NCBI GenBank assembly: GCA_007693325.1
Contig: REDW01000059.1
Span: forward strand, 1 to 39,602
Reading direction: 5' to 3'
Length of the DNA: 39,602 bases
Source of the DNA: Spirochaetaceae bacterium
GTDB taxonomy: Bacteria > Spirochaetota > Spirochaetia > DSM-27196 > PWMO01
The translations under genes and the position numbers were made by a program. How positions within the stretch are numbered: position 1 is the stretch's first letter; every line of letters starts with the position of its first letter. The notes under the pieces were generated by a model. It was not told the DNA's origin. It did not search any database and was given only the letters and a program-made list of their open reading frames with translations. This document shows positions 6,183 through 33,719 of the stretch, in pieces.

Positions 6183-6217
6183 CGGCGGCTCTCCCTGGCG
6201 GTCATTCTACCGCATTG

Positions 6218-8652: not shown

Positions 8653-9455
8653 TGCCTGCCTCCGGTTACCAGCTGCCGCTGCTCCAGAAAGGCTATCAAG
8701 GCATCCACTGCGGCCGCCGGGTCACCGTTGACCGCCACCCGTTCTCCGCCGCGGGCCACCTTTGGCCGCGCTATCTTCACCACCTTGGTGGGTGACCCTT
8801 TGAGTCCCAGCCTGGCACCGTCCAGATCGAGGTCGGCAGCTGTGAGCAGCGGCACTTCGGTCTGCCGGGCGCGTTTCTTGCCGCGCAGCGTCGGCAGCCG
8901 CACCGTTGCAATCTCCTTGACCACCGTCAGTAGTGCCGGTAAGGCCAGTTCCACCTGCTGGTAGCCCTCTTCAGTCAGGCGCTCGACGCTGATCCCGGCC
9001 TCGCTTGCGTGCGTGATGTGCGCTACGTAGGTTGCCAGCGGTACGTCCAGCCACGCGGCAAGACCGGGACCAACCTGCGCGGTATCCCCGTCTGTGGCAC
9101 GTTCTCCGGCAACAATCAGGTCAGAGCCGCCCATCCAGCGGATGGCGGCAGCCAGTGTGTAGGAAGTGGCCCAGGTGTCAGAGCCGGCGAACTTGCGGTC
9201 CGAGACCAGCACCCCGCCGTCACAGCCCATGGCGATAGCTTCCCGGATCGCCTTGATGGCCGCCGGGGGCCCCATAGACACCACGGTCACCGAGCCGCCG
9301 TGGCGCTCGCGCAGCCGCAGCGCGGCCTCGATTGCGTACAGGTCCAGCGGGTTAACCACCGCCGCCGCACCACTGCGGATCATGGTTCCGGTCTGCGGAT
9401 CCATCTTGACGTTGCCTGTTTCAGGGACCTGCTTGATCGGCACAATTATCTTCAC
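8649..9455 (-). CDS. etfB: Electron transfer flavoprotein beta subunit
   Basis: I place the start at the GTG at 9455 (protein VKIIVPIKQVPETG..., 268 residues). AGGAG lies 6 bases upstream, the protein then begins exactly like other EtfB proteins, and the predicted transcript begins only about 15-20 bases before it. The frame remains open to 9914, but that extension would lie upstream of the promoter and overlap the divergent exporter gene. The EtfB signature GERATDGDTAQVGPGLA is present. It is the first gene of the lactate operon. Confidence 0.93.
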   Translation of the reverse strand: MKIIVPIKQVPETGNVKMDPQTGTMIRSGAAAVVNPLDLYAIEAALRLRERHGGSVTVVSMGPPAAIKAIREAIAMGCDGGVLVSDRKFAGSDTWATSYTLAAAIRWMGGSDLIVAGERATDGDTAQVGPGLAAWLDVPLATYVAHITHASEAGISVERLTEEGYQQVELALPALLTVVKEIATVRLPTLRGKKRARQTEVPLLTAADLDLDGARLGLKGSPTKVVKIARPKVARGGERVAVNGDPAAAVDALIAFLEQRQLVTGGRQ

Positions 9456-9474
9456 CGGCTTCTCCTGGTACGCC

Positions 9475-9503
9475 AGCATACACCGGGAGGGTGATACAGT
9501 CAA
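9475..9503 (-). promoter_or_regulatory. Promoter of the lactate operon (etfB)
   Basis: On the minus strand, -35 TTGACT (9503-9498), a 17-base spacer and -10 TATGCT (9480-9475), close to consensus. The leader is short and contains only the AGGAG site. Two palindromes upstream, one covering the -35 box, suggest strong regulation. Confidence 0.65.
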
Positions 9504-9533
9504 TGTTTTATTGACAGTATTCATTGAATGCTG
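9496..9533. promoter_or_regulatory. Two overlapping operator-like palindromes at the lactate promoter
   Basis: Palindrome one is ACAGTCAAT-N5-ATTGACAGT (9496-9518, one mismatch) and covers the -35 box. Palindrome two is CAGTATTCATTGAATGCTG (9515-9533, one mismatch). They share four bases. This looks like a binding site for one or two dimers of a repressor or activator. The motif differs from the AT-rich repeats in front of DUF302, so the regulator may be encoded outside this window. Confidence 0.5.
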
Positions 9534-9608
9534 TTGGCGAATGCTGCTCCTGGCGCGGGATGGCACACGATCCTGCAAAGGCGGAGCTGTTACTGATCGC
9601 CGGCACCT

Positions 9609-9637
9609 TTGACAGGCCGCCGCCAACCGGGTAGAGT
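9609..9637 (+). promoter_or_regulatory. Promoter of the DMT exporter gene, probably giving a leaderless mRNA
   Basis: TTGACA (9609-9614), a 17-base spacer and TAGAGT (9632-9637). Only 9 bases separate the -10 box from the GTG start at 9647, so transcription should begin within about three bases of the start codon. Confidence 0.6.
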
Positions 9638-9646
9638 CCCGGAATT

Positions 9647-10570
9647 GTGATCCAAACCGACGCAAAGAGTTCAGCTGCCTACTTTGCCGCCGTTGCTGCC
9701 GTTCTCCTGTGGGGCAGCTCGTTTGTGGCCACCAAAATTGCCTTGAACAGTTTCTCCGCGGTAGCCTACGTAGTCTTTCGCTTCTCTGCGGCCAGCCTGA
9801 TCTTCGGCATGATTCTGCTGCGAAGCCGGCTGCCCCGGATTCCGCTGCAGAGCCATCTGCGCCTGGCGCTGATGGCGCTCTTTGAACCGGGGCTCTATTT
9901 TGTCTTCGAGACAACCGGGCTTCAACGGACTACCGCGTCCAGCGCGTCGATCATCATAGCGTCGGTCCCGGTAGTAGTTGCTGTTGCCGCGGCATTGCTG
10001 CTCAAGGAGCACCTGCCGCTGCGGGGGTGGCTGGGGGCGCTGCTGTCGATAGCCGGCATCATTCTGCTGTCGGTGTGGGACGGGGCAACAGGCCTGACAG
10101 AAGGCAGTGCGGTTGGCAACCTGCTGGTATTTCTGGCCGTCCTGTCCGCCTCTGGCTACATCATTCTGGCGCGCCATCTGTCGGCCTCGCTCAGTACACT
10201 GCAGATTACCGCATTCCAGGTGCTCTACGGCACCCTCTACTTCTCGCCGGGACTGGTGTGGCTGATCATTTCCGGACAGTGGCCCCGCCCCGACGCGGCG
10301 GCAATCGGGGCTCTGGTCTTCCTGGTTATCGGGGCAACTCTCGGCGCCTTTCTATGCTACAACTACTCGCTGTCGCGTCTCGGGGCAGCCAGATCAGCGG
10401 TGTTCCTGAACGGAATTCCCGTTGTCACGGTGGTGGTGGCCGCCGTGCTGCTCGGTGAGCGGATCTCCTACCACCACGGGCTGGCGGCAATACTGGTTAT
10501 ATTGGGTGTCTCAATTGCCAACCAGCCGCAGAAACGCGCCGCCCAGGCGGTTTCACCCGGTGTCGGGTAG
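9647..10570 (+). CDS. EamA/DMT superfamily transporter
   Basis: The 307-residue protein has about ten membrane helices arranged as two EamA repeats. Typical features are LLWGSSFVATKIAL in the first helix, the PVVVAVAAALLLKEHLPLRGWLGALLSIAGIILL stretch closing repeat one and the matching GERISYHHGLAAILVILGV closing repeat two. Members export amino acids, nucleobases or other metabolites; the substrate cannot be read from sequence. The GTG at 9647 starts just before the first helix. There is no proper ribosome binding site, and the promoter predicts an almost leaderless transcript. The exchanger gene follows after 3 bases, so the two are probably co-transcribed. Confidence 0.85.
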   Translation: MIQTDAKSSAAYFAAVAAVLLWGSSFVATKIALNSFSAVAYVVFRFSAASLIFGMILLRSRLPRIPLQSHLRLALMALFEPGLYFVFETTGLQRTTASSASIIIASVPVVVAVAAALLLKEHLPLRGWLGALLSIAGIILLSVWDGATGLTEGSAVGNLLVFLAVLSASGYIILARHLSASLSTLQITAFQVLYGTLYFSPGLVWLIISGQWPRPDAAAIGALVFLVIGATLGAFLCYNYSLSRLGAARSAVFLNGIPVVTVVVAAVLLGERISYHHGLAAILVILGVSIANQPQKRAAQAVSPGVG

Positions 10571-20246: not shown

Positions 20247-21320
20247 ATGCGCGTCCGGGAGGTTGATCCACGCGAATCCCGATCCAGTTCAAACCTGCTG
20301 CAGAGTTCCTTCTGGGCGCACTTCAAGCAGCGCATCGGCCACCGGACCATCGCATTGCGCTTTGAGAGTGCGCGCGGGCGGGGAACCGTACTGGCAGTGC
20401 ACCGCACCACCGGCTGCGGTCAGCACCTTTATGTGCCGCACGGCCCGGAGATGACGCTGCCGGAAGCCGAGCAAGGGGCCTTCCTGCTGCAGCTGTCGGA
20501 CGCCATAGCGGCCGCCGTTGACTGCAATCCAACCTTCCTGCGCTTTGATCTGCCGTGGAGATCGCCGTTTACCGAAGACGGCCACTGGCTCGGCCGTCCC
20601 GAGCCGCGCCTGCAGGAGATGCGCATGAACTTCGGTAGCGGAGGCCTCCATCTGCGTAAAGCACCCAGCGATATCCAGCCGCCGGATACGGTCATCATCG
20701 ATCTACAGCACGGCGAAACCAGCCTGCTGGCGCGCATGAAAGCCAAGACGCGTTACAACATCCGCCTGGCCGCTCGTCACGGCGTGCAGGTGTGTGATGA
20801 AGGCGTTGAAAAGCTGCAGGAGTGGCACGATCTGTACCGCCAGACGTGCGAGCGCCAGCGTATTGTGTGCGAGCAGGCAGACTACTTCGGCAAACTGTTT
20901 GATACTGCAGCTGCCGACCGGGCGGCCAACCGGGGGCAGGCACCGCGGCTGCACCTGATCGCCGCGCGCCACAACCGCCGCATGGTAGCCGGGCTGATCT
21001 GTGCCATCTGGAAGGACAAGGCATACTATCTCTACGGCGCCAGTTCACGGGCGCACGGGCGTCTGATGGCACCCTACGCGGTCCAGTGGCACACGATGCT
21101 GACCGCGCGCGCCGCCGGGTGCCGCAGCTACGACATGTGCGGTGTACCCCCCGAGAACGACCCGGCGCATCCAATGTACGGACTCTATCGCTTCAAGACC
21201 GGCTTTGGCGGGCAAGTGCACCATTTTTGCGGCTGTTGGGACTACCCGGTGGATGAGGAGCAGTATTGCGCTCACGCGCAGGCACAGGCGTCGCACGCTG
21301 CGTACCATCTGCGCGGCTGA
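20247..21320 (+). CDS. FemAB/FemX-family aminoacyltransferase (GNAT-fold)
   Basis: The 357-residue protein matches the FemAB family. It opens with LLQSSFWAHFKQRIGHRTIAL, and the middle has LLARMKAKTRYNIRLAARHGV. The second GNAT domain contains AYYLYGASSRAHGRLMAPYAVQWHTMLTARAAGCRSYDMCGVPP and then YGLYRFKTGFGG. FemAB enzymes transfer amino acids from aminoacyl-tRNA to the peptidoglycan precursor or to other acceptors. Similar proteins occur in organisms without interpeptide bridges, so the acceptor is unknown. Start at the ATG at 20247, with a probably leaderless mRNA. The stop is 9 bases from the convergent histidine kinase gene. Confidence 0.87.
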   Translation: MRVREVDPRESRSSSNLLQSSFWAHFKQRIGHRTIALRFESARGRGTVLAVHRTTGCGQHLYVPHGPEMTLPEAEQGAFLLQLSDAIAAAVDCNPTFLRFDLPWRSPFTEDGHWLGRPEPRLQEMRMNFGSGGLHLRKAPSDIQPPDTVIIDLQHGETSLLARMKAKTRYNIRLAARHGVQVCDEGVEKLQEWHDLYRQTCERQRIVCEQADYFGKLFDTAAADRAANRGQAPRLHLIAARHNRRMVAGLICAIWKDKAYYLYGASSRAHGRLMAPYAVQWHTMLTARAAGCRSYDMCGVPPENDPAHPMYGLYRFKTGFGGQVHHFCGCWDYPVDEEQYCAHAQAQASHAAYHLRG

Positions 21321-21329
21321 ATGGTTACC

Positions 21330-23849
21330 TCAGATAGCATGGAACTCGGCGCGGGGGATCTCATCTACGCTTATACGTTGCTGCCTGCGCAACCCGCGCA
21401 GGAATGCGTCTACAACCCTGGGATCAAACTGGCGCCCTTTGTTGCGGTAGAGTTCAGCGATTGCCTGCTCACTGCGCAGAGCCTTGCGGTAGGGGCGGTC
21501 TTCGGTCATAGCGTGCCATGAGTCGGCTACCGCAATAATCCGCGCCTGCAGCGGAATCTCTTCACCCTTCAAACCGCGCGGGTAGCCGCTGCCGTCGTAA
21601 CGTTCCTGGTGTGCCAGAATGATATCACTCACGGTATGGAACGAATCAAACGTGCGCAACAACGCGGCCCCCAGCTCTGCGTGGCTCTTCATGACTTCCC
21701 ACTCCTCGCTGGACAGCGGCCCCTCCTTGAGCAGGATCGAGTCAGGTATACCGAGTTTACCCACATCGTGCAGCAGCAGCGACTCGCGCAACGTCATGTC
21801 GACCGACACGCCCAGTTCTTCGGCAATCAGGCTACCGTAGTGCAGTACATCGTAGGAATGCCCGGCGGTGTAGCGATCGCGCAGCTCCAGTGTGCGGGCA
21901 AAGCTGAACGACAACTCCCGAATGCGCTGCTCCAAATAGCGCGCGTGGGCTTCGCTCTGCTGCAGTTTGCGCATGTGGATAAGGTTCTTGATGCGGGCAT
22001 CGAGCTCACGGATATTGATCGGCTTGGCCAGGTAGTCATCGGCACCGCTTTCAAGACCTTCAATCCTGGATTCCATCTCCGACTTGGCGGTGATCATGAT
22101 CACCGGCAGCTGGTGCAGCTGTTCATCCTGCCGGATGCGTCTGAGAAGCTCGAATCCGTCCATGTGCGGCATCATCACGTCGGTGACCACAATGTCAGGT
22201 TCAGCGCTCGTTATGGCTTTCCAGCCCTCAAGACCGTCGTGCGCCACGGTTACACGGTAGCCGTGATTGCCCAGCATGCGGTAGACGAAAGCGCGCAGAT
22301 CCACGTTATCTTCCACGTAGAGAACGTGGGTTGCGTCTTCGCCGACATGCTGCGGGGCCTGGATCTCATCGGACAGCTGCGTCTCGATAGATTGACTCTC
22401 CATCAACGCCAGTTCGCGCACCGAGAGGTGAGCAAAGTCGTCGGTGCGCCGCGCCGAACGGCGGCGCTCGGGCCCGCTGTAGTCCGCCTCGCCGCGCCTG
22501 CGGTCATCGCCCTCGCGGCGCTCGATGAACGCGTCCGGAGCCAGGACGTCGAGGTTAGCAGGGATACCGACGGTGAACGTAGTACCGGTTCCGGCTTCAC
22601 TCTCAACATCAATTGTGCCGTGAAGCAGCTCTACGGCTTCTTTGACAATCGCGAGTCCCAGGCCGGTACCTTCATAGCGGCGCGTCGAGGATCCGTCCAC
22701 CTGCCGAAAGCGCTCAAAGACTGCGTCCAGCCGATCTGTCGGAATGCCGATTCCGCTGTCGGTCACCGTAAGCACAATTGAGTCGCGCTCTGCCCGCAAC
22801 CCGACCACAATCGAGCCGCTGTCGGTAAACTTCACCGCGTTGCGCAGCAGATTGGAAAGGATTCGCTCGATCTTTTCTCGATCCAGGTAGGCCTCGACTG
22901 CCCCGGGTGCAGCGTTTAGCCTGAGCTGAACGCCTTTGCGCCGGCATACATCGCCAAATACGGTGGTCATGTCTTCGCAGACGTCGAGCATGTTTACCCA
23001 GGTCAGCCGCAACTGCATCCGGCGCGCATCGTACTTGGCGAAGTCCAGCATCTGATTGATCATGTCCAGCAGCCGCAACCCGTTGCGATAGACCTGCGCG
23101 ATCAGCTGATGCTGCTCACGAGTGAGTGTACCCGCGTCTCCCTGGTAGAGCCCCTGGACCGGCGAGATAATCGAGGTCAGCGGTGTGCGCACCTCGTGGC
23201 TCACGTTGGCAAAGAACTGCGACTTCAGCACATCCATCGTCTTGAGCTCTTCATTTGCCTGTGCGAGGCGATAGCGGGCTGCAAACTCTTTGAAGCGCAG
23301 CCGACTGGAGAAATGTGCGCTCAGTGCCACCAGCAAAATCGTACCAAGCAGGAAGAAGTTGTTGTTGGCGAGAATAGCCCAGTTCTGGATCTGCGGTGTG
23401 AAGAGCACCGGTATGATGTAGGCCGCGTAGACTACAAGACAGATGAACAGTGTGGGAAGCGTATGCAGCGGGAGAATAGCCACAAATACTATGAGGACCA
23501 GGTTGATACCCGCATAGTACGGACTGAGATAACCCTCGGTCAAATGAACCATGATCACCAGGCCCAAACTGCACACCAGGTACTGGACCATTGCGAGCAA
23601 GAAGGGATAGTGCTGACCGATGGTGCTATAGGCGGTGAAATAGATAACGATACTTGCCAGCACCACTGCCAACCGCAATGTCAGTAGAGCTGCCAGATAG
23701 TCCGGGTACATTACAAAATCGAGCAGACCGAACACTGGGAACGCGATAGCGGCTGCAACTGCTGCAACGCGCGTATTACGTTGGGTTCGCTGCCGTGCTT
23801 CATCGAGAAACTGGTGGTGAAGACTTGGCGGGTCCGCTACTTCACTCAA
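21330..23849 (-). CDS. Hybrid sensor: histidine kinase, receiver and HD-GYP phosphodiesterase in one chain
   Basis: The 839-residue protein has six or so membrane helices (about residues 27-185), a short coiled coil, and HisKA with the phospho-accepting H218 (SHEVRTP). The HATPase domain has NLLRNAVKF, DSGIGI and GTGLGLAIV. A charged linker follows, then a receiver domain with D557 (VTDVMMP) and K609, then an HD-GYP domain with H694-D695 (LLHDVGKLGIPD) and H747-Q-E-R-Y-D-G-S-G-Y-P757. HD-GYP domains hydrolyse c-di-GMP. Here the usual HHE of the motif is HQE, so one metal ligand may be changed. The start is a TTG at 23849 with GAGAGGA just upstream. It is last in the operon with the triple-PilZ enzyme, 18 bases after the radical SAM gene. 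Confidence 0.9.
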   Translation of the reverse strand: MSEVADPPSLHHQFLDEARQRTQRNTRVAAVAAAIAFPVFGLLDFVMYPDYLAALLTLRLAVVLASIVIYFTAYSTIGQHYPFLLAMVQYLVCSLGLVIMVHLTEGYLSPYYAGINLVLIVFVAILPLHTLPTLFICLVVYAAYIIPVLFTPQIQNWAILANNNFFLLGTILLVALSAHFSSRLRFKEFAARYRLAQANEELKTMDVLKSQFFANVSHEVRTPLTSIISPVQGLYQGDAGTLTREQHQLIAQVYRNGLRLLDMINQMLDFAKYDARRMQLRLTWVNMLDVCEDMTTVFGDVCRRKGVQLRLNAAPGAVEAYLDREKIERILSNLLRNAVKFTDSGSIVVGLRAERDSIVLTVTDSGIGIPTDRLDAVFERFRQVDGSSTRRYEGTGLGLAIVKEAVELLHGTIDVESEAGTGTTFTVGIPANLDVLAPDAFIERREGDDRRRGEADYSGPERRRSARRTDDFAHLSVRELALMESQSIETQLSDEIQAPQHVGEDATHVLYVEDNVDLRAFVYRMLGNHGYRVTVAHDGLEGWKAITSAEPDIVVTDVMMPHMDGFELLRRIRQDEQLHQLPVIMITAKSEMESRIEGLESGADDYLAKPINIRELDARIKNLIHMRKLQQSEAHARYLEQRIRELSFSFARTLELRDRYTAGHSYDVLHYGSLIAEELGVSVDMTLRESLLLHDVGKLGIPDSILLKEGPLSSEEWEVMKSHAELGAALLRTFDSFHTVSDIILAHQERYDGSGYPRGLKGEEIPLQARIIAVADSWHAMTEDRPYRKALRSEQAIAELYRNKGRQFDPRVVDAFLRGLRRQQRISVDEIPRAEFHAI

Positions 23850-23867
23850 AACGTCCTCTCCTGTCAG

Positions 23868-25175
23868 TCAGTTGGAGGGCACCAATTTGTGAAACACCTG
23901 ACGAAAATACTTCGCCCTGTCACGATAGCTTTCTTCACTATAGATGCTTCGATAGATTCTCAGTAGCCCTTCCTCAAGCTCTGCGGCAGACAACAGGGGA
24001 TGGCGAATTACCGGATTCCAGGCGGTGTACAGGCTCCAGTCACTGCTGGTGATTCGGCCGCTATCCAGAAGTCTTTGCCGCAGGCGGCTTCCCGGAAACG
24101 GCGTCAGGATAGTAACCTGGGCACCCATGATGTGGTGTTCATTAACGAAATCGATCGTTCGGTTGAATACGCTGTGGTCGTCCTCCTCCATTCCTACGAT
24201 GAACGAAGCGTACACACCGATACCGTTTTCCTGAATCGCCCGAATATGCTCTCCATACCGGGCAAAGCGTCGAGCTTTCCATTTGTTGCCGTTCAAGTTG
24301 ACCAGATTGCCCTCTACCACGCTTTCCAGCCCGATGAAAACTATCCTGCAACCTGTTTCATGCAGTCTGCGCAACAACTCAGAGTCAGTCGCTATAGCGA
24401 TATCGCTTTGGGCGTACCAGGTAAACGGGATACTCTCGAACTCGGTCATGAGCTCCCGCACAAACTTCCTGTTCACAAACATATTGTCGTCAGCAAAACC
24501 GACCTGAGCATTTTTCCAATACCGCTTCACTTCGCGTATCTCTGCCGCCACTTGAGCGGCAGACTTATGCCGATAGCTTGTCCCGTACACCTCCGGTGCC
24601 GTGCAGAACTCACAGTCATGCGGACAACCACGGGTAGCCTGGACCCACACCACCGGGTATTTTGTTTCAGCCAGAAGGTCGTAACGCGGCAACGGAATGG
24701 CAGCCATATCAACAGACTTGTGGTCAGAAGCGCGGTAGACTTTTCTTGGGGTTCCCTGCACAAAGTCTTGTAGAAACAGCGGCCAGGTGTGCTCGGCTTC
24801 TCCCACAAATACAGTATCAACGTGTTGCGCAGCCTCATCGGGCAGAACCGTAGCGTGTATCCCACCGAGCGCTACATGAATACCGCGTTGGCGAAACGCA
24901 GCGGCAATTTCGTAGGCACGGACAGCCTGCTGCGTCATCGCGGAGATGCCCACCAGATCAACATCCTGAGCCAGATCAAGCTTCTGGTAGTTCTCATCGA
25001 CTATCAGAACCGAGTGCTCGGGTGCGGTCAGTGCCGCAACGGTCGGCAGTGCTGCCCCGAGACCGTTCCAGTAGTGCAGGATCGTTCGCATCTCCCGCGA
25101 ATTCTTGACGAAATCTGCAAATGCCCGCGACCGACCGAGAAAATCTCCTGCGGGCGACACGAGCAGAATTCTCAT
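23868..25175 (-). CDS. B12-binding-type radical SAM enzyme
   Basis: The 435-residue protein has an N-terminal cobalamin-binding-like Rossmann domain (DLVGISAMTQQAVRAYEIAAAFRQRGIHVALGGIHATVLPDEA) and a radical SAM core with C184-P-H-D-C188-E-F-C191, the CxxxCxxC motif that holds the 4Fe-4S cluster. The GGIHAT segment and the following VFVGEAE are typical of the class B/BchE-like group. The DxHxxG motif that would supply the lower cobalamin ligand is not seen, as in many members. Such enzymes methylate or otherwise modify unactivated carbons or phosphonates. The ATG overlaps the ACP stop (TAATG), so the enzyme probably acts on the ACP-bound or finished product of this operon. Confidence 0.88.
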   Translation of the reverse strand: MRILLVSPAGDFLGRSRAFADFVKNSREMRTILHYWNGLGAALPTVAALTAPEHSVLIVDENYQKLDLAQDVDLVGISAMTQQAVRAYEIAAAFRQRGIHVALGGIHATVLPDEAAQHVDTVFVGEAEHTWPLFLQDFVQGTPRKVYRASDHKSVDMAAIPLPRYDLLAETKYPVVWVQATRGCPHDCEFCTAPEVYGTSYRHKSAAQVAAEIREVKRYWKNAQVGFADDNMFVNRKFVRELMTEFESIPFTWYAQSDIAIATDSELLRRLHETGCRIVFIGLESVVEGNLVNLNGNKWKARRFARYGEHIRAIQENGIGVYASFIVGMEEDDHSVFNRTIDFVNEHHIMGAQVTILTPFPGSRLRQRLLDSGRITSSDWSLYTAWNPVIRHPLLSAAELEEGLLRIYRSIYSEESYRDRAKYFRQVFHKLVPSN

Positions 25176-25459
25176 TACCCTGCCGCCCTCCGATCGTGAT
25201 ATCGGGACTCAAGCAGCGCGAAAAACTCGCCTACTGTTTCTACGCTCGCAAATTCCCCCTCGTCGAGCTCGAGGTCGAGTTCTTTTTCTAATGTAGCCAG
25301 TATCTCCATCGACATCAGGCTGTCGATGCCCAGTTCTTCGCGAATCAACACGTCGTCGTTGAACTCAGACGCCGCAATACGCGATATGCGCGATACGGTT
25401 TGTTCAATCCGCTGTCGCAGACCGCCCGTATAGAGCGTTCCTTCCGGATGCTCGCTCAT
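25175..25459 (-). CDS. Acyl carrier protein
   Basis: The 94-residue protein has the phosphopantetheine attachment site S47 in EELGIDSLMSMEIL, followed by the acidic helix LEKELDLELDEGEF that is typical of ACPs. It has an N-terminal tail of about 15 residues beyond the core. GGAG precedes the ATG. It lies between the AMP-forming ligase (32 bases upstream) and the radical SAM gene (overlapping by one base), so it is a dedicated carrier for this pathway, not the main fatty acid ACP. Confidence 0.92.
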   Translation of the reverse strand: MSEHPEGTLYTGGLRQRIEQTVSRISRIAASEFNDDVLIREELGIDSLMSMEILATLEKELDLELDEGEFASVETVGEFFALLESRYHDRRAAG

Positions 25460-25491
25460 GAGACATACTCCTTCATTTGAGTGTCGGCAGG

Positions 25492-26895
25492 TTAGCGCTG
25501 TAGGTTTATGGTCTTGGGAACCTTGTACGGTGCCAGCAACTGCTTCAACGACGCTCTAATCTGTGATATTTTTTCATTGAGAGCAAAGTGACGTGCCGGT
25601 ACGATTTCTGCTTCTACGCTGTTCTGGTGCGCCCGGACGATAGCATCGGCAATATCCGGATCGAGGCACAAAGCACGGCGTATTTCCTCTAAATCTACTA
25701 TAACACCATTTACCTTACATGTCAACTTCACCTCGGCATCGAACACGAGGTGGTCACCGTCAAAATGGCCGATATCTCCGGTGCGTAACCAGTCGCCTGC
25801 GCGGGATTGCCGCGACTCGCGCGGCCTGCGGTAATAGCCCGCGCTCATCGAGCCGGTCCTGACCAGGATCTCGCCTGCAGCACTGCCGTCCTTTGAATCG
25901 ATACGACACTCTACCCCCTGGCAGACCGGACCAACGGTCCCCGCCCGCGCCTTGCCGCGCGAGTTTCGGCTTACCGGAGTGAACTCCGTCAACCCGTATC
26001 CGTGCAGCACCTCAACACCAAACGTCTCGCGCAGCGCGTGATACTCGCTGTCGCTAAGTACGCTGCCACCGCAGACAAACGCCTGCAGCGAAGGCAGCTG
26101 CGTCGAGTCCCCGGCGGCGCGCCGCAACAACGCGTAGAGCTCGGGAACTGCGGTCACGTGCTGGATCCTGAGCTCATCAATTGCGTCAAAGAGCACTCGC
26201 GGATGGATAGTTCGCGCGATGATGCCGGTGAGACCGTAGAGCAGAGGGACCATAATACAGCCAACCAGCGTGAAGATGTGCGACATCGGTATGCTGTAGA
26301 GCATGCGGTCGCCGGACGCCGCCTGCAGCCCCTCTTCCTGCAGCACGCGTGCACCGTCGAGATACTGCTGATGCGAGACCAGCGCACCAAGCGGGTAGCC
26401 GTACCCGCGATAGGTGTAGTTGACCGACGCAACTTCATCGGCAAGATCGGCCGGCTCTGCCGGCTCAGCGCGCTGCTGCACCAGACGCACCGCCTGATCG
26501 GTTCTGGAGATAACCGTCCTGCCGCGCAGGTACGGCTCCAGCAGCGATAGATGGTGCTGCTCACTGATGACCACCGGCGGATTGGAGTTTTCGAACACCT
26601 CGTTCAGCTCAAGCGTGCGGTATTCGAGCTTTCCGAACACCGGGACCGCTTTGAGCCTGACCAGCGCGAGCAGTATCACCACGAAGTCAATCGAGTTCTC
26701 CAGAAACAGCGCAACCAGGGTTCCACGCTGCAGACCCCAGCGCGACAACTGCGCCGAGGCATCCAGAATGCGGCGTCTCAGCTCATCGGCGCTTACGGGT
26801 AGTGCGTTCTTTGCGTCTCTGAGCTCCACCAGACACGGGTGGTTACCCCATTGCTGCAGTGCATCCAGCGCTGCGGATGCTATCGTATGATTCAC
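25492..26895 (-). CDS. AMP-forming acyl ligase with an atypical P-loop
   Basis: The 467-residue protein belongs to the ANL (acyl-CoA/acyl-ACP/NRPS adenylation) family. Motifs include HGYGLTEF (the A5-like YGxTE), GEILVRTGSMSAGYYRRP, DWLRTGDIGHFDGDHLVF (A7/A8) and VNGVIVDLEEIRRAL. The phosphate-binding loop is T161-YRGYGYPLG170 in place of the usual TSGTTGxPKG: the lysine is a leucine. The C-terminus ends at APYKVPKTINLQR, without the GK lysine that normally catalyses adenylation. It probably loads an acyl or aminoacyl group on the neighbouring ACP, but the altered loop and missing lysine leave its chemistry open. The start overlaps the upstream stop by 4 bases (ATGA). Confidence 0.85.
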   Translation of the reverse strand: MNHTIASAALDALQQWGNHPCLVELRDAKNALPVSADELRRRILDASAQLSRWGLQRGTLVALFLENSIDFVVILLALVRLKAVPVFGKLEYRTLELNEVFENSNPPVVISEQHHLSLLEPYLRGRTVISRTDQAVRLVQQRAEPAEPADLADEVASVNYTYRGYGYPLGALVSHQQYLDGARVLQEEGLQAASGDRMLYSIPMSHIFTLVGCIMVPLLYGLTGIIARTIHPRVLFDAIDELRIQHVTAVPELYALLRRAAGDSTQLPSLQAFVCGGSVLSDSEYHALRETFGVEVLHGYGLTEFTPVSRNSRGKARAGTVGPVCQGVECRIDSKDGSAAGEILVRTGSMSAGYYRRPRESRQSRAGDWLRTGDIGHFDGDHLVFDAEVKLTCKVNGVIVDLEEIRRALCLDPDIADAIVRAHQNSVEAEIVPARHFALNEKISQIRASLKQLLAPYKVPKTINLQR

Positions 26896-29800
26896 AACGG
26901 TTTTTCGGCGGCCGCAATCACCGCCTGCGGCGGTGACCCCAGCGCGCGCTCCACGGTGACGTTGCAGAAACCAGCGTCGGTGAGCATCGCAACCAGCTCC
27001 GGGGCGTCAAAGAACCGGAAATAGCCCTCTTCTTCCAGCTCAAACAACTCAGCCGCTTCATTGAGCATCTCGCGTGCGTCGCGCAGTTCCGAGCCTCCGC
27101 TGTAACTCTGGGTTGCCTCTTCAACGTACTCGGTGAAGATCACCGAGATATCGCTATCGGGCCGCATGCTCGATACTACTACGCGGCCGCCGGGATGCAA
27201 CATGCGGTAGAACTCGACGATAGCGTAGTGCGGGTTGAACAGATAGGAAATGAACAGACTGGCGTTGATCCTGTCAAACGAAGCATCGGCAAAACTGTAG
27301 TTCAGTGGGCGTTCCAGCGCTCCGAATGTCAGCCGGCTGAACTGCGGCGCGGAGTGCTTGGGCAGCGTCCCGCTCAGGTAGCGCGCTGCCTGGTGAAGGT
27401 CGTGCAGAACCTGTTGCGCCTCAGGCGTCAGCGCGCGGCCCTCGACTGCCGCCGGGACAGCAAGATCTTCAGACTGACCGCGCGCGTAGCGTCCGAGTAC
27501 GCCATCAGGGTCATGCTGCAGCTCTTTGCAGATTGCGCCGGTAAGCCCCTCAATTCTGCCGCGCAGATGCGGCAGCGGCAGCCGTGGATCCTCGATCAGC
27601 TCCTGCAGCGGAAGCAGCCGGCTCGGCTCGAGATCCGCCTGGCGGTACTGTATGCTCCAACCCTCCGGGGCGCTACCGCCGCTGAGTACGGCCTCTACCT
27701 TGCGGCTCGCGCTCTGCAGTGCTTCACTCACGAGGTCAACCGCGGTAACTTCAACTGAACGCGCCTCGAGGTGCCCATCCGCGCCGTGCAGCTGAAACAG
27801 TTGCTCGAGGTAGAGTCCGGTGCCGCAGCCCATATCGGCTACCTGCATGCCGTCACCGACCTGCAGCAGCTCGCCCTGGCGCTGCAGAAACCGGCGGAAG
27901 TCGGCCAGATTGCGGTAGAAATCGTATCCGCTGCCGGGCTCGCCGCGGCCAACCAGGTAGTTATGCCAGTACTGCACCGGATCGGGCGCGCGCCGCTGAT
28001 CGAGGCGCTCGCGCTCGGAGGTGATCAGCTCCAGCACCTCGTCCTTGTCCGGATCAACCGGATCAAACCATTGGCCGAAGAGCTGCTGCAGGGTGTAGGC
28101 GGTTATCAGTTTAAAAGTGCGCAGCGCGTCATCACTGGTGCGAAGATTGTGGCCGGCGGGAATCTGCACGATCTCGCGTGCAGCAGGGGCGGCCACGCTC
28201 ATGATGTCTTCAACCTCTGATGGCATCACCCACATATCGTGGCGGCCGTACAACCAGAGCACCGGCGTATCGATTGCCGCCATATCAACGCGCGCGTCGG
28301 TGATGTAGGCATAGCGCTGATCTATCAGATCCTGGGCAACGCGGTCCATATCTACCAGGTGGCCCAGCAGACCGCAGACGCCTGAAGGAATGCCCATTTT
28401 GAAGTTGCCAACCACATCCAGCCCACCCAGAGTGTTGCGCAGCGCCGTCTGTGCCGCCGGCAGGCCCATCGCGCTGACCCAGTAGTCGACCATTCCCTTG
28501 TTGGCCGGATCCGAGAGCACCTTGCGCGCGTCCAGCGCCGACATGCTGAAGGTAACCAGCACAACGCGGTCCGCACGGAACAGCGGACTGCTGTGAACGT
28601 AGTCGAGGGTTGCCTGCAGGTCCGATCGTCCGCTGCTGATTCTGTAGTGCAGCATCTCGTAACCGTGATCTACCCCGGCGTAGGCATTGTCACTCTCACC
28701 GGGGCGGTCAATTCCGTCGTAGCGCACCACAGCCAGGGGCTCACCGCGGTGGGCAAAGTTGGCCATCAGTACCGCAGCCAACGGCGCCAGCGCTTCTTTC
28801 TTCTTACCGAAGGCCGGCGGCAGGACAAACACGGTTGCCGGAGGCCTCTCTGAGCCGCTTAGACGGCTCAGACCAACCGTGTTCAAGAGCGCCGCGATAG
28901 AACGGCCACGCTCGTCGGGGTAGCGCAGCAGCGTGGAGGCCGCCCCGGGCAGTCCCAGCACCCCGGTTTGAAAGCGATAGACCGGTATTGAGTCCCACTC
29001 GGCGCTTTCCATCCGGCGCAGCCCGGTCTCGCTGCGGCGGATTCCCGCCTCGACACCAATACGGACCAGCGCCTCATCGTCGGCTTCACCGGAAACCACG
29101 CTGGACTGCAGGTGCCGTATCTCACCGTGCGAGTCGAGACCAAGCGACTCCGCCATGCGGTAATAGACACTGGCCAGCCCTTCCAGCTTGGCCAGCATAT
29201 CGTGGTCCGCGGTGAACTCGCACAGGAATCCGCGCCGGCTGATATCAACCAGGCGCGCCGGAATCTCACGTGCCGTGGGTCCATCGAGCATCAGTCCAAA
29301 CTCGGTACCCTCGTCCAGGATTTTGCGGCCGTAGGACCGCTGCTCGCTGCGAAACAGCTTTCGCGGCGCGTCACACCGCAGCGTAGCGTCACGTAACTGC
29401 TGAACTGTTGTGGAGAAGAAGAAACTGCCCGCATCTGCAACAAAACTGCCGAAGAGGGTTGTCTCGGCGGCGTCGATCGGCCGGCCGGCGGAGAGCTGCA
29501 GCGTAATACTCCAGCTATTGGCATCGAATGACGTCACCAATCCGCTGCGCAGCTCGTGGCCGTGGGCCGGCATCAGGTGCAGCAGCGCTCCGGTTGCCAT
29601 CACCAGCTGTATATAACGCGCAACCGTCTCCGGCTCACTCACCTGGAAGCTGCTCTCCAGCCCCTGTTGCTCAATCCAGCTGTGAACGGTGCGCAGCGTG
29701 CCGCCCGAACTGGCCTGTACGATGAAATTGCGCAGTCTGGTCCGGTCTATTTCGCCGATCCGTTCAATGCGCAAGCCGGCTGAAGCCCGATCGTGAAACG

Positions 29801-30371
29801 GGTTGCGCTCGGTATAAACCACCGAAACCTCGGCACGAACTGTGCGCTTCTCGCCCGGCAGTGTCAGCTTCAGTGTCATTCTGTCGCCGATTGCCAGGTA
29901 ACCGCCGTAGGTAGCAAGAAAACCGTCGGTTGATACGTTGTCCAGGCTCTGAATAGTGGCGCTGCGGTGATCGGTGCCCACCGAAGCGATGACGCACGAG
30001 GCTCGCGGAAGCTTGCGGTTATTTGCCCCGGTGCCGCTGTTAAGAATGTCGTGTTCTTTGGCTGCGCGCACGTAACTGTCGATGAGGGCGCGCTGCGCCT
30101 CGGCCTCAAACTCAAATTGCAGCCCGATGACGCGGTCCGACCCGCTTTCAACGTGGCGGGTGATCCGCGCCGGGATCTGCACTTCTCCGTCCAGGTCGGG
30201 AAACCGCACCACGAGAGTGTCGAGGCCGGTCTGGTCCTCATTGAGAGACGCCACAATGCGCATCCCGGAGCTGCTGATATCGGTTGCCCTGGCCTCAATG
30301 CTCCGTCCGTCGCTGTCAAAGGCTACACGAGCGCTGCGCTGTATTCGTACGTGTCGTCGCTTCTCCGGCAT
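26892..30371 (-). CDS. Triple-PilZ, alpha/beta-hydrolase and SAM methyltransferase fusion
   Basis: This 1159-residue protein joins parts normally found separately. Three PilZ-like domains carry complete c-di-GMP motifs: R5xxxR9 with D31-ISSS-G36; R119xxxR123 with N145-VSTD-G150; and R341xxxR345 with D376-ISRR-G381. Residues about 510-765 form an alpha/beta-hydrolase with nucleophile S609 (VTFSMSA), D712 (YGRHD) and H741 (PAGHN). Residues about 815-1159 are a class I SAM methyltransferase with D846-MGCGTG852 and HPGGRVVVSSMRP. I infer that c-di-GMP binding controls the hydrolase (thioesterase or acyltransferase) and methylation steps. The ATG at 30371 lacks a close ribosome binding site. Its stop overlaps the ligase start, so the two are coupled. 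Confidence 0.88.
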   Translation of the reverse strand: MPEKRRHVRIQRSARVAFDSDGRSIEARATDISSSGMRIVASLNEDQTGLDTLVVRFPDLDGEVQIPARITRHVESGSDRVIGLQFEFEAEAQRALIDSYVRAAKEHDILNSGTGANNRKLPRASCVIASVGTDHRSATIQSLDNVSTDGFLATYGGYLAIGDRMTLKLTLPGEKRTVRAEVSVVYTERNPFHDRASAGLRIERIGEIDRTRLRNFIVQASSGGTLRTVHSWIEQQGLESSFQVSEPETVARYIQLVMATGALLHLMPAHGHELRSGLVTSFDANSWSITLQLSAGRPIDAAETTLFGSFVADAGSFFFSTTVQQLRDATLRCDAPRKLFRSEQRSYGRKILDEGTEFGLMLDGPTAREIPARLVDISRRGFLCEFTADHDMLAKLEGLASVYYRMAESLGLDSHGEIRHLQSSVVSGEADDEALVRIGVEAGIRRSETGLRRMESAEWDSIPVYRFQTGVLGLPGAASTLLRYPDERGRSIAALLNTVGLSRLSGSERPPATVFVLPPAFGKKKEALAPLAAVLMANFAHRGEPLAVVRYDGIDRPGESDNAYAGVDHGYEMLHYRISSGRSDLQATLDYVHSSPLFRADRVVLVTFSMSALDARKVLSDPANKGMVDYWVSAMGLPAAQTALRNTLGGLDVVGNFKMGIPSGVCGLLGHLVDMDRVAQDLIDQRYAYITDARVDMAAIDTPVLWLYGRHDMWVMPSEVEDIMSVAAPAAREIVQIPAGHNLRTSDDALRTFKLITAYTLQQLFGQWFDPVDPDKDEVLELITSERERLDQRRAPDPVQYWHNYLVGRGEPGSGYDFYRNLADFRRFLQRQGELLQVGDGMQVADMGCGTGLYLEQLFQLHGADGHLEARSVEVTAVDLVSEALQSASRKVEAVLSGGSAPEGWSIQYRQADLEPSRLLPLQELIEDPRLPLPHLRGRIEGLTGAICKELQHDPDGVLGRYARGQSEDLAVPAAVEGRALTPEAQQVLHDLHQAARYLSGTLPKHSAPQFSRLTFGALERPLNYSFADASFDRINASLFISYLFNPHYAIVEFYRMLHPGGRVVVSSMRPDSDISVIFTEYVEEATQSYSGGSELRDAREMLNEAAELFELEEEGYFRFFDAPELVAMLTDAGFCNVTVERALGSPPQAVIAAAEKPL

Positions 30372-30413
30372 GGGTGGTGAAAAACCTCGTGCATTAGAGT
30401 ACCCGGTTATGGC

Positions 30414-31265
30414 TCAGCGCGCAAGCGCACCCGGGCGCCCCTCAGCGTACTGCTTCAGAAACTCGTCGTACGCCTTCATCAACCGGCGCACCAGCTCGGG
30501 AATCTCGAACTCCAGATCACCGATTTGTGAGACCGGCATGACCTTGCTCGACGTGCTGGTTACAAAGCATCCGGCAACGTGCGCCAGCTCGCGCTGCGCT
30601 ATTGGCTCTTCAAGCAGTGGAACGCCGAGATCGTCGATCACCTGGTTGACCGTAGTGCGCGTGACCCCGGCCAGCACCTGCGAATGTGGAGTGGTACGGA
30701 TGGTCTGGCCGTCGGTAACGTAGAAGTTGGTTCGGGTGCCTTCGGTAACGTTGCCGTGGCGGTCCAGCAGCAGCGCATCGTAGGCGCCGGCAGCACGAGC
30801 CTGGCGATACGCGATAGTGCTGGCCAGCATGTTGAGCGACTTGGCCTGCGGAAACTGGCGCTCGGCCTCCACAATGATCAACGCCGCTCCGCGTTGGTAC
30901 AGCTTGCGATCCGGAAACAGCGGGTTAAGCGCCATGACGTAGAGCGTACTGAGCTCCGGTCGGTCCTCGGAGGGACTGCCGATCAGCAACTGCTTGATGT
31001 TGGCATCCGAGATCCGGTTGGCGGCAATCAGCTCGCCGGTCCAACGTGAAACGTCGCCGGGTTGCAGCAGGTGCCCTAACCCGATGACCTGGGCCGAGTG
31101 AAACAGCCGCTGCTCGTGCATCTCGGGAAAGTACAGCACGCCCTTGCGCACTTTCATGGTCTCGTACACACCGTAGCCGTACTGAAAATTGACGTCGTCT
31201 ATTGGCACGGTTGCCTCGGCAAGCGGCAGCAGCGCACCATTTCTCGAACAGTACGGTCCTATCAT
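30414..31265 (-). CDS. Class IV (fold type IV) PLP aminotransferase
   Basis: The 283-residue protein starts at the ATG at 31265, where AGGAGGA is 5 bases upstream and the ATG overlaps the MATE stop (ATGA). The frame extends further but inside the MATE gene. The PLP lysine is K142 in QAKSLNMLAST. The family signature follows: AGAYDALLLDRHGNVTEGTRTNFYV, then VLAGVTRTTV. Relatives are branched-chain aminotransferase (IlvE), D-alanine aminotransferase and aminodeoxychorismate lyase. Position in this operon suggests that it supplies or uses an amino acid in the ACP pathway, but a role in branched-chain amino acid metabolism is also possible. Confidence 0.88.
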   Translation of the reverse strand: MIGPYCSRNGALLPLAEATVPIDDVNFQYGYGVYETMKVRKGVLYFPEMHEQRLFHSAQVIGLGHLLQPGDVSRWTGELIAANRISDANIKQLLIGSPSEDRPELSTLYVMALNPLFPDRKLYQRGAALIIVEAERQFPQAKSLNMLASTIAYRQARAAGAYDALLLDRHGNVTEGTRTNFYVTDGQTIRTTPHSQVLAGVTRTTVNQVIDDLGVPLLEEPIAQRELAHVAGCFVTSTSSKVMPVSQIGDLEFEIPELVRRLMKAYDEFLKQYAEGRPGALAR

Positions 31266-32662
31266 GTCTCCTCCTGCACCGGCGCCGGTTCTGATTGGCG
31301 TTCGGTGAGAACGTGAATCCAACGCCCCGACAGTACTCTATGCACCCCCAGAACTGCCTTGAACAGCTCTTCGCTTCCGGTCATCAGGTAGACCAGCCAC
31401 ACCGGCAGTCCCAGCACCAATCCGCCTATGACCGCGGCCGGTACACCCACCAGCCACAGGATACCAACATCCACAAACAGGCTGAAGCGCGTATCGCCGC
31501 CGCTGCGCAGCAAACCGACCACCAGCTGCATGTTGGTGGCCTTCAACGTCAGAATGATACCCAGCACCACCAGCAACTGCTGCAGCATCAGCCTCACCTG
31601 CGGCGATACCTGAAACAGCAGCGGTATCCAGCGCGACAGCACGATAACCCCGGCGCCAAACAGGATCCCGAGCAGCGGTATCAGGGTCAGCAGACGTGTA
31701 GCGTAGCGCTGGGCGTCCGCACGCCTGCCTGCTCCGATTGCGTTGCCGATCATGATTGCGCTGCCGTTGCCGGTTCCCATGAATATTACGAATGAGAGCC
31801 GCGCGACTGTCTCGCAAAGATTGTACGCCGCCACCACCTCGGTGCCCATGCGCGCGTAGACTACCATGTACATGGTCATTCCCAGTGACCAGCCGATCTC
31901 GTTGAGAATAACCGGAGACGCAGTGCGCAGGAAGCGCCCCACAAAGACGCGCTGGAAGCTGAAGAACTCCGCCGGCCGGCCGGCCGGCGCCTCCTTACGG
32001 CGATATACCAGCAGCAGAAGCACAGTGACCTCCAGCGTCCTTGCCAGCGCGGTAGCAATTGCCGCACCACGCACGCCGAGCGCGGGAAACCCGAACAGTC
32101 CGAAGATCAACAGCATATTAAGCGCAGTGTTGACCGCCAGTGAAACCAGCGACACGTACAGCGGCAGACGAACGTTGCCGGTGCTGCGCAGCACCAGCGA
32201 GAAGACGATTGTCAGCGTAGTGGCAACGTAGCTCAGTCCGACGATCTGCAGATAGCCGCGTCCCAGCTCGATTACCGCTGTGTCGCTGGTGTAGAAGCCC
32301 AACACAGTCCCGGGCACCACAATCGCGGCAAAGCTGAACAGCGCGGCGCCGCAGAGGCCCAGCACCAGTGCGATGCCCGTTGAAGAGCGTATGTTCTTGA
32401 GGTCGCGCACGCCCCAGTACTGTGCGGTGAATACGGTGGTACCGCTTCCCACACCAAACAGGAACAGCATCAACAGGAAGAAGAGCTGATTACTCAGCGC
32501 CACGGCCGCAATCTCGGTTTCACCAAGCTGGCCGATCATCACCGTGTCGATCATGTTGAGCGACGTCACTACCAGGTTCTGCAGCGCGATCGGCAACGAG
32601 ATAACAATAAGTCTGCGCAGAAAGTCGCGGTCACGCAAGGTATTGCGCAGGGCGTTCGTCAC
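31262..32662 (-). CDS. MATE family efflux transporter
   Basis: A 466-residue protein from the GTG at 32662 (VTNALRNTLRDRDFLRRLIVISLPIALQNL). The usual MATE opening is reached directly, and the longer open frame upstream would overlap the divergent promoter region. About 12 helices are visible, with MIDTVMIGQLGETEIAAVALSNQL in the N-half and LNEIGWSLGMTMYMVVYARMG in the C-half. MATE proteins export drugs or metabolites with Na+ or H+. As the first gene of the operon with an aminotransferase, ACP and ligase, it may export the product. It overlaps the aminotransferase start by 4 bases. Confidence 0.87.
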   Translation of the reverse strand: MTNALRNTLRDRDFLRRLIVISLPIALQNLVVTSLNMIDTVMIGQLGETEIAAVALSNQLFFLLMLFLFGVGSGTTVFTAQYWGVRDLKNIRSSTGIALVLGLCGAALFSFAAIVVPGTVLGFYTSDTAVIELGRGYLQIVGLSYVATTLTIVFSLVLRSTGNVRLPLYVSLVSLAVNTALNMLLIFGLFGFPALGVRGAAIATALARTLEVTVLLLLVYRRKEAPAGRPAEFFSFQRVFVGRFLRTASPVILNEIGWSLGMTMYMVVYARMGTEVVAAYNLCETVARLSFVIFMGTGNGSAIMIGNAIGAGRRADAQRYATRLLTLIPLLGILFGAGVIVLSRWIPLLFQVSPQVRLMLQQLLVVLGIILTLKATNMQLVVGLLRSGGDTRFSLFVDVGILWLVGVPAAVIGGLVLGLPVWLVYLMTGSEELFKAVLGVHRVLSGRWIHVLTERQSEPAPVQEET

Positions 32663-32692
32663 AAGTAGGCCCCCGTCATGCTGTTCTCTGTT

Positions 32693-32721
32693 TTGACATG
32701 ATAGCCGGTTTGCAGTATGAA
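32693..32721 (+). promoter_or_regulatory. Promoter of the NadR-like gene, predicted leaderless
   Basis: TTGACA (32693-32698), a 17-base spacer and TATGAA (32716-32721). Eight bases later is the ATG at 32730, which has no ribosome binding site. Confidence 0.62.
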
Positions 32722-32742
32722 ATGAAACTATGAGCGCAACAA
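32714..32742 (-). promoter_or_regulatory. Possible promoter of the MATE/PilZ operon
   Basis: On the minus strand, TTGTTG (32742-32737), a 17-base spacer and CATACT (32719-32714). It is weak and back-to-back with the -10 box of the NadR-like gene, so the two promoters may compete for polymerase. Confidence 0.35.
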
Positions 32743-33719
32743 CGCACGGGGTCATTCTGGGGCGTTTTATGCCGCCGCATAACGGGCATCGCTATCTGAT
32801 AGATTTTGGTCGACACGTGGCCGACGAGCTGACGGTCTTCCTCTGCTCGCTGCCGCGGGACCCGATCCCCGGCGAGTTGCGCCTGAGCTGGATGCAGGAG
32901 CTTTTCCCTTCGGTGCGCCTGGTGCACATCACCGAAGAGAATCCCAACGCCAACAAGGCTCAGCCCGGGGCATTCAGGATCTGGGCCGATGCAATTGCGC
33001 GCAACATGCCGCACGGCGTGGATTATGTGTTTGCCTCAGAGCACTACGGACGCGCTCTGGCGCTGGAACTGGGTGCAGGTTTTCTTCCGGTGGATCCGTC
33101 GCGCTCGCTGTTTCCGGTATCGGCGTCGGCAGTGCGCGCAGCACCGATGACCTACTGGGACTACCTGCCGGAGCCGGTTCGGCCGTTCTTTGTGCGACGC
33201 GTCTGCATTGTGGGTAACGATGTCGACCGGCGTGTAGCGCTGGGGCGAGCGCTGGCGGAGCATTTCAGGACGATCTTTGCCGGCGACTACGCCGCCTTCT
33301 GGCAGGACCACGTAGAGCGCGCGCCAACCGCCGCCGATCTGCCGCTGCTGCTGCGTGCCCAGGCAGCATCCGAAGGCGCACTGGCACGCCAGGCGCAGCG
33401 ATTGCTGTTTGTGACCACCGATCCAACCCAGCTGGCGCTGCAATGGAGCGTCGAGCACGGTGAAGCCGCTGACCGCCTGGCGGCCGAGCGGCAGCGCGGC
33501 TACGATCTCTACCTGGCTCTACAGGCCGCGCCGCCGGCCGCTGAGCACCGGCAGCTCGGTGGTGACCTGCTGTCACGCTACCTGGCGATGCTTCCGCCAA
33601 CCGAACGGGTAGTACCAGTCCCGGCTCCAGAACCCGAAGCCGGTCACATCACTACTGCACTGGAGTCCGCCTGCAGTGCGGTGGAGCAACTGCTCAAAAC
33701 GAGTGAACAAAGTCCTTGA
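32730..33719 (+). CDS. NadR-like protein: NMN adenylyltransferase domain with a degenerate kinase domain
   Basis: The 329-residue protein opens with VILGRFMPPHNGHRYLIDF, where H17-N-G-H20 is the nucleotidyltransferase motif, and has PVSASAVR136, matching the ISxTxxR motif. It probably makes NAD from NMN and ATP. The second half has the layout of the NadR ribosylnicotinamide kinase, but the Walker A GxxxSGKS is replaced by G162-NDVDRRV and the later CDTD-like segment by VTTD. The kinase is therefore probably inactive. The ATG at 32730 is at a predicted leaderless transcription start. The 3' end overlaps the convergent marC gene by 26 bases. Confidence 0.8.
   Translation: MSATTHGVILGRFMPPHNGHRYLIDFGRHVADELTVFLCSLPRDPIPGELRLSWMQELFPSVRLVHITEENPNANKAQPGAFRIWADAIARNMPHGVDYVFASEHYGRALALELGAGFLPVDPSRSLFPVSASAVRAAPMTYWDYLPEPVRPFFVRRVCIVGNDVDRRVALGRALAEHFRTIFAGDYAAFWQDHVERAPTAADLPLLLRAQAASEGALARQAQRLLFVTTDPTQLALQWSVEHGEAADRLAAERQRGYDLYLALQAAPPAAEHRQLGGDLLSRYLAMLPPTERVVPVPAPEPEAGHITTALESACSAVEQLLKTSEQSP

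Follow-up and report, generated by a model that had tools for sequence, protein, structure and literature searches.

In the Rpf system of Xanthomonas (RpfF, RpfC, RpfG), a fatty-acyl signal, the diffusible signal factor (DSF), acts through a membrane hybrid kinase on a receiver-HD-GYP phosphodiesterase. The pairing of DSF with RpfC-RpfG has been described (PMC8895600). In the Phc system of Ralstonia (PhcB, PhcS, PhcR, PhcQ), PhcB makes 3-hydroxy fatty-acid methyl esters that are sensed by PhcS (PMC10653808, PMC11960443). Here, we analyzed an operon on contig REDW01000059.1 of a 3.47-Mb spirochaete assembly (Spirochaetaceae bacterium, GCA_007693325.1). The window, i.e. the whole stretch of DNA that was analyzed, is this contig at its full length of 39,602 nucleotides. 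We rate the chances as about even that the operon is a self-contained circuit, in which an acyl signal, probably a methyl ester, is made under the control of cyclic di-GMP (c-di-GMP) and acts on a c-di-GMP-degrading receptor. The genes, including an acyl carrier protein (ACP) and a radical S-adenosylmethionine (SAM) enzyme, are the following:

31262-32755, minus strand: MATE exporter (PF01554, E 1.5e-50); start uncertain (32755 or later); genus-specific accessory
30414-31322, minus strand: class IV aminotransferase (PF01063, E 1.1e-41); start probably at 31265; genus-specific accessory
26892-30371, minus strand: fusion protein of 1159 residues (PilZ, E 2.2e-19; LuxD-type Acyl_transf_2, E 0.0014; methyltransferase, E 2e-10)
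25492-26895, minus strand: AMP-ligase-like (ANL-fold) protein of 467 residues (AMP-binding, E 4.2e-49)
25175-25459, minus strand: ACP of 94 residues (E 5.4e-11), with the phosphopantetheine serine in GIDS
23868-25175, minus strand: B12-binding radical SAM enzyme of the HpnJ-like class, with CxxxCxxC
21330-23849, minus strand: HisKA-HATPase-receiver-HD (HD-GYP) receptor kinase (HD_5, E 5.9e-38)

A preliminary description of this DNA had named these seven minus-strand genes in this order, and all were recovered as open reading frames with matching domains. It had also described the junctions as mostly 4-base or 1-base overlaps, but a clear overlap was found at only two of the six: fusion and ligase-like genes overlap by 4 bases, ACP and radical SAM genes by 1 base. 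The MATE and aminotransferase genes overlap by 4 bases only if a later ATG start is chosen, and the remaining three junctions are gaps of 42, 32 and 18 bases.

Like Phc, the operon combines a SAM methyltransferase with a kinase that carries a homologous sensor, a likeness that runs via a phcBS-like operon of Paraburkholderia. In contrast to Phc, its methyltransferase does not belong to the PhcB family by sequence and forms part of a fusion with PilZ and LuxD-like domains. The operon also has an ACP of its own and a ligase-like protein, and output would run through receiver and HD-GYP domains within the receptor, where Phc uses PhcR/PhcQ/PhcA. With Rpf/DSF the operon shares the hybrid kinase output via receiver-HD-GYP and would share the fatty-acyl signal logic. 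However, kinase, receiver and HD-GYP lie on one chain here, the sensor is MASE8-like and the proposed synthase carries PilZ domains. Domain searches gave no match to an RpfF-like crotonase among the proteins of the operon.

In the proposed circuit, the ACP would carry an acyl chain that comes from fatty-acid synthesis or is handled by the ligase-like protein. The fusion is the proposed signal synthase: its LuxD-like domain would free this chain as a fatty acid, and the methyltransferase domain of the same polypeptide would methylate the acid, most simply to a fatty-acid methyl ester; both this substrate and this product are what we infer. Operons with the B12 radical SAM enzyme may in addition use it to alter the acyl chain. 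A LuxD-like thioesterase fused to a methyltransferase beside an ACP would be a plausible alternative route to a PhcB-like product (acyl-ACP to acid to methyl ester). The rate of synthesis would be set by c-di-GMP through the three PilZ domains. On the receiving side, the MASE8-like domain of the kinase would bind and sense the product, and the kinase would control its own receiver and HD-GYP domains such that c-di-GMP is lowered and a feedback loop is closed, the sign of both c-di-GMP effects being presumptive. Perception would thus be coupled to the breakdown of c-di-GMP by the HD-GYP output, similar to RpfC/RpfG. More tentatively, the operon could encode a quorum-sensing-like loop, with a synthase gated by c-di-GMP through three PilZ domains and a receptor that is a c-di-GMP phosphodiesterase. 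If true, spirochaetes would have a cell-cell signal system in which a secreted lipid is coupled to c-di-GMP twice, in its synthesis and in its perception. No paper combining these elements was found in the open-access literature, and the circuit of bacterial chemical communication may be an undescribed one.

The gene set was compared across Spirochaetota. Besides the window's own genome, 17 genomes of the window's order carry a homologue of the fusion, as do 4 genomes from a second class of Spirochaetota. Among named relatives, the nearest are spirochaete metagenome assemblies (fusion 95% identical in SKLB01000367.1, 74% in RECP01000025.1). The gene order fusion, ligase-like protein, ACP, (radical SAM enzyme), kinase/HD-GYP was identical in all fetched contigs of sufficient length, spanning several families of the window's order and the second class. 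Four genes make up the core: the fusion, the AMP-ligase-like protein, the ACP and the histidine kinase-receiver-HD-GYP protein, whose gene closes the set, in both classes, in each contig that reaches that far. The radical SAM gene occurs in roughly two thirds of the operons; families f58 and f59 and genome G301 lack it, with the ACP gene directly preceding the kinase gene. Linkage of the fusion to aminotransferase and MATE genes is confined to the window's genus (g1), and the genes flanking the operon vary from genus to genus. Thus, the core of the seven-gene set initially described holds in two classes, whereas the aminotransferase and the exporter are genus-specific extras. Within the window's order, fusion and kinase occur together in 16 genomes, each alone in two, and neither in 26 (Fisher p = 2e-8, uncorrected for phylogeny). 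Both fusion-only genomes are fragmentary (75-76% complete), with contigs that end inside the operon. Since the core is conserved across two classes, the gene set is far beyond chance association. The neighbourhood comparison proposed in the preliminary description found the fusion, ligase-like, ACP and HD-GYP genes, in most copies with the radical SAM gene, together and in order. A single pathway that is regulated by c-di-GMP and has a phosphodiesterase gene of its own, as that description had in mind, is supported to the extent that the core, including HD-GYP, stays together in order, with the kinase in 16 of 18 fusion-bearing genomes. Beyond Spirochaetota, the searches comprised one word-based genome scan and a plasmid collection. 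The scan with the fusion returned two very close relatives only, because it depends on exact peptide words, and the plasmid collection gave no match to the hydrolase-methyltransferase part of the fusion.

The fusion was analyzed in an alignment of 17 proteins, the window's and 16 homologues that are 35-95% identical to it. Its domains are as follows:

Residues ~3-102: PilZ, motifs R5xxxR9 and D31xSxxG36
Residues ~119-217: PilZ, motifs R119xxxR123 and NxS147xxG150
Residues ~252-430: YcgR-N-like domain and PilZ, motifs R345xxxR349 and DxS378xxG381
Residues ~510-760: LuxD-like alpha/beta hydrolase
Residues ~800-1159: SAM methyltransferase

The RxxxR and (D/N)xSxxG motifs are present and conserved in the 17 aligned proteins, as expected from the initial statement that all three PilZ domains are intact, and judged by these motifs the domains are of the c-di-GMP-binding type. 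Residues 252-430 gave profile matches to the PP4397 structures 3KYF and 2GJG, with the YcgR-N-like domain placed before the third PilZ domain. A moderately confident model of residues 1-440 (pLDDT 71, pTM 0.46) had its best fold matches in PP4397 with c-di-GMP, MrkH, MotI/DgrA, YcgR and Borreliella PlzA (including 3KYF, 5Y6F and 7MIE). The arrangement of a YcgR-N-like domain followed by PilZ with both c-di-GMP motifs is that of YcgR-type proteins (PP4397, YcgR, PlzA). The fusion differs from these in that its chain also bears two more PilZ domains and two enzyme domains.

LuxD is the myristoyl-ACP thioesterase of the bacterial luciferase fatty-acid reductase (PDB 1THT), and its nucleophile elbow also departs from GxSxG. 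A confident model of the hydrolase domain (pLDDT 83.5, pTM 0.87) matched both chains of 1THT (Vibrio harveyi LuxD) best (E 1.2e-12, TM-score 0.73 by target length), with other alpha/beta hydrolases ranking behind at E about 1e-10. In a profile search of the PDB, 1THT was the sole credible sequence match (E 8.7e-4). PF02273 matched 12 of the 17 fusion proteins at E up to 0.01 (best 1.6e-7), while the match of the window's own fusion falls under the Pfam gathering score. The catalytic triad S609, D712 and H741 is invariant in the alignment, and the nucleophile elbow reads [TA]xSxS instead of GxSxG. Fold, triad and non-GxSxG elbow are thus as in LuxD; in contrast, identity is only about 15% and the domain is embedded between PilZ and methyltransferase. 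What had simply been called a hydrolase is therefore present and, more specifically, LuxD-like in sequence and, according to the model, in fold. Domain searches revealed no LuxC- or LuxE-like protein among the genes of the operon. The methyltransferase domain has an invariant motif I (D846-x-GCGTG) and carries an insertion of about 120 residues.

The receptor kinase has the following domains:

Residues 1-206: MASE8-like multi-pass membrane sensor
H218: kinase
D557: receiver
H694, D695, K698, H723, H747, GYP, D776: HD-GYP

H218, D557 and most HD-GYP key residues are invariant in 17 receptor homologues. PF20968 matched the MASE8-like sensor at E of 1 or lower in 9 of 16 members (best 3.5e-5). 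Eighteen GGDEF matches were found in the window's genome, so c-di-GMP synthesis is to be expected there.

The link to METHYLTRANSFERASE signalling comes from genomes G303 and G333, where the fusion is absent and the receptor, about 50% identical along its whole length, is present. In both, the receptor is divergently paired with another, PhcB-like methyltransferase (P0001), and only there does a PhcB-family methyltransferase lie beside this receptor:

L086:1-1668 (G333): divergent receptor/PhcB-like methyltransferase pair
L087:3090-4772 (G303): divergent receptor/PhcB-like methyltransferase pair

The best match to P0001 in the plasmid collection was a methyltransferase on a Paraburkholderia graminis plasmid (E 9e-21), whose gene is followed by a kinase and two response regulators (L094, NZ_CP024936.1 432595-436970). 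This arrangement corresponds to that of phcBSRQ (PMC10653808). The profile of the receptor's sensor aligned with the kinase of that operon over its full length (199 columns, hhalign 98.7%, E 3e-16), whereas control comparisons with unrelated membrane proteins gave 0.2-0.7%. In Spirochaetota, independent searches of 296 genomes located PhcB-like methyltransferases at 27 places and sensor domains at 63. For 18 of these methyltransferases, where 0.09 would be expected, a sensor lies no more than 3 kb away; 17 share its strand. Gene maps revealed that the kinase gene directly adjoins the PhcB-like methyltransferase gene in most pairs. Thus, by sequence, the receptor is of a sensor type that is found beside PhcB-like methyltransferases. 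In the tree, the G333 receptor nests in the fusion-associated clade (support 94/94 for the clade, 87/73 for the position; deeper forks are weak). As a PhcB-like enzyme lies beside this nested receptor, one receptor lineage appears to be paired with two methyltransferase types, with an apparent exchange of synthase in G303 and G333, a PhcB-like enzyme standing in place of the fusion. If this is true, the sensor type can swap its partner enzyme, and new signals could be found via the enzymes beside MASE8-like kinases.

PhcB-like methyltransferase genes next to MASE8-like kinase genes were seen in many Spirochaetota genomes (L152-L169; e.g. L161:5772-8527 and L163:3643-6374), an apparent family of phcBS-like two-gene modules for which no report was found in the phylum. 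The phcBS(R)Q-like operon of P. graminis is located on a conjugative plasmid, and such a module may be mobile. On a conjugative plasmid of Pseudanabaena (L093:18304-21286, NC_019690.1), a PhcB-like methyltransferase gene converges with genes that encode a response regulator and a kinase with this type of sensor. The sensor domain is also shared by a short protein from a Pseudanabaena plasmid; this was not used as support, since its gene is flanked by an HTH gene on one side and type IV secretion genes on the other. A PilZ domain in the PhcB-like protein of G303, with motifs plausible by eye, was not detected by Pfam and is not claimed.

The preliminary description had proposed a small-molecule or lipid-modifying pathway. 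The idea of one regulated system is supported, but since the sensor type of the receptor sits beside PhcB-like methyltransferases, a cell-cell signal system is likelier than a generic lipid-modifying pathway. A c-di-GMP-controlled pathway without a signal is rather doubtful, yet a serious alternative. Its product would be a modified membrane or secreted lipid for a biofilm/motile switch, and the kinase would sense the membrane state or another cue and tune c-di-GMP. Biosynthetic enzymes are commonly under PilZ control (e.g. for cellulose and alginate), HpnJ-like B12 radical SAM enzymes often act on lipids, one genus adds a MATE exporter and an aminotransferase, and MASE8-like sensors are also found away from methyltransferases. 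However, sensors of this subfamily show a strong linkage to another methyltransferase type that is unrelated to the first, and one receptor lineage is found with one or the other type; this fits a ligand-receptor pairing better than a shared physical cue.

The signal circuit itself has to face several findings that weigh against it. No PhcB-like methyltransferase lies near 39 of the 63 MASE8-like sensors, and the Phc link runs via the Paraburkholderia plasmid operon of phcBS(R)Q form, not via Ralstonia PhcB and PhcS themselves. Homology of the fusion methyltransferase to PhcB was tested and is not supported (hhalign 52%, 65 columns, only around motif I), and the K-GY-GD and FDYL motifs of the PhcB-like family are missing from it. 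In the HHExxDGxGYP motif of the receptor, Gln replaces the second His of HHE in members of the window's order; the second class keeps the His but has Asn for the Asp that follows. Given this Gln, phosphodiesterase activity of the receptor is not certain. Furthermore, the role of the ligase-like protein is not explained by the circuit, and we infer the chemistry and the identity of ligand and product.

The ligase-like protein was initially described as an AMP-forming ligase. The AMP-binding match supports this, but all 19 homologues lack two core catalytic motifs. An invariant TYRGxG stands where the ATP-phosphate-binding loop SGTTGxPKG would be, and there is no A10 lysine, as the proteins end near YK(I/V)P, before the A10 position (19/19 in both cases). 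The motifs around GYGLTE, TGD and the hinge are kept. Judged by its motifs, the protein is catalytically atypical; it may handle a thioester without adenylation, and a ligase-like family without adenylation motifs is an enzymology question in its own right. The ACP keeps the motif ELG(I/V)DS with the phosphopantetheine serine in all copies read in frame. An acyl-amino product, or an acyl derivative of another kind, is an unlikely alternative to the methyl ester; for it, the ligase-like protein and the LuxD-like domain would transfer an acyl group to an acceptor that the methyltransferase modifies. LuxD is formally an acyltransferase, an aminotransferase is encoded in the window's genus, and the ligase-like protein lacking adenylation motifs may have a new transfer role. 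However, the aminotransferase is absent from the operons of other genera, and acid release followed by methylation requires no additional enzyme.

That the kinase-HD-GYP gene is an accidental neighbour, the alternative initially offered, is highly improbable: only the general abundance of such regulators speaks for it, whereas the fixed order of the core in long contigs of two classes, always ending in the kinase, its presence in nearly all fusion-bearing genomes and its near absence from members of the order without the fusion contradict it.

Adjacent to the operon, a FemAB/FemX-like gene (window 20247-21317) converges on it. This prompted a reading as an exosortase/PEP-CTERM-associated operon, which was rejected because the PEP-CTERM FemAB model scored far under its cut-off and the FemAB-like gene adjoins the operon only in loci of genus g1. 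Elsewhere in the window, an apparent lactate-utilisation cluster lies on the minus strand at 3460-9914, with two GlcD-type dehydrogenases, a LarA-like racemase and electron-transfer flavoprotein subunits, as read from the translations only.

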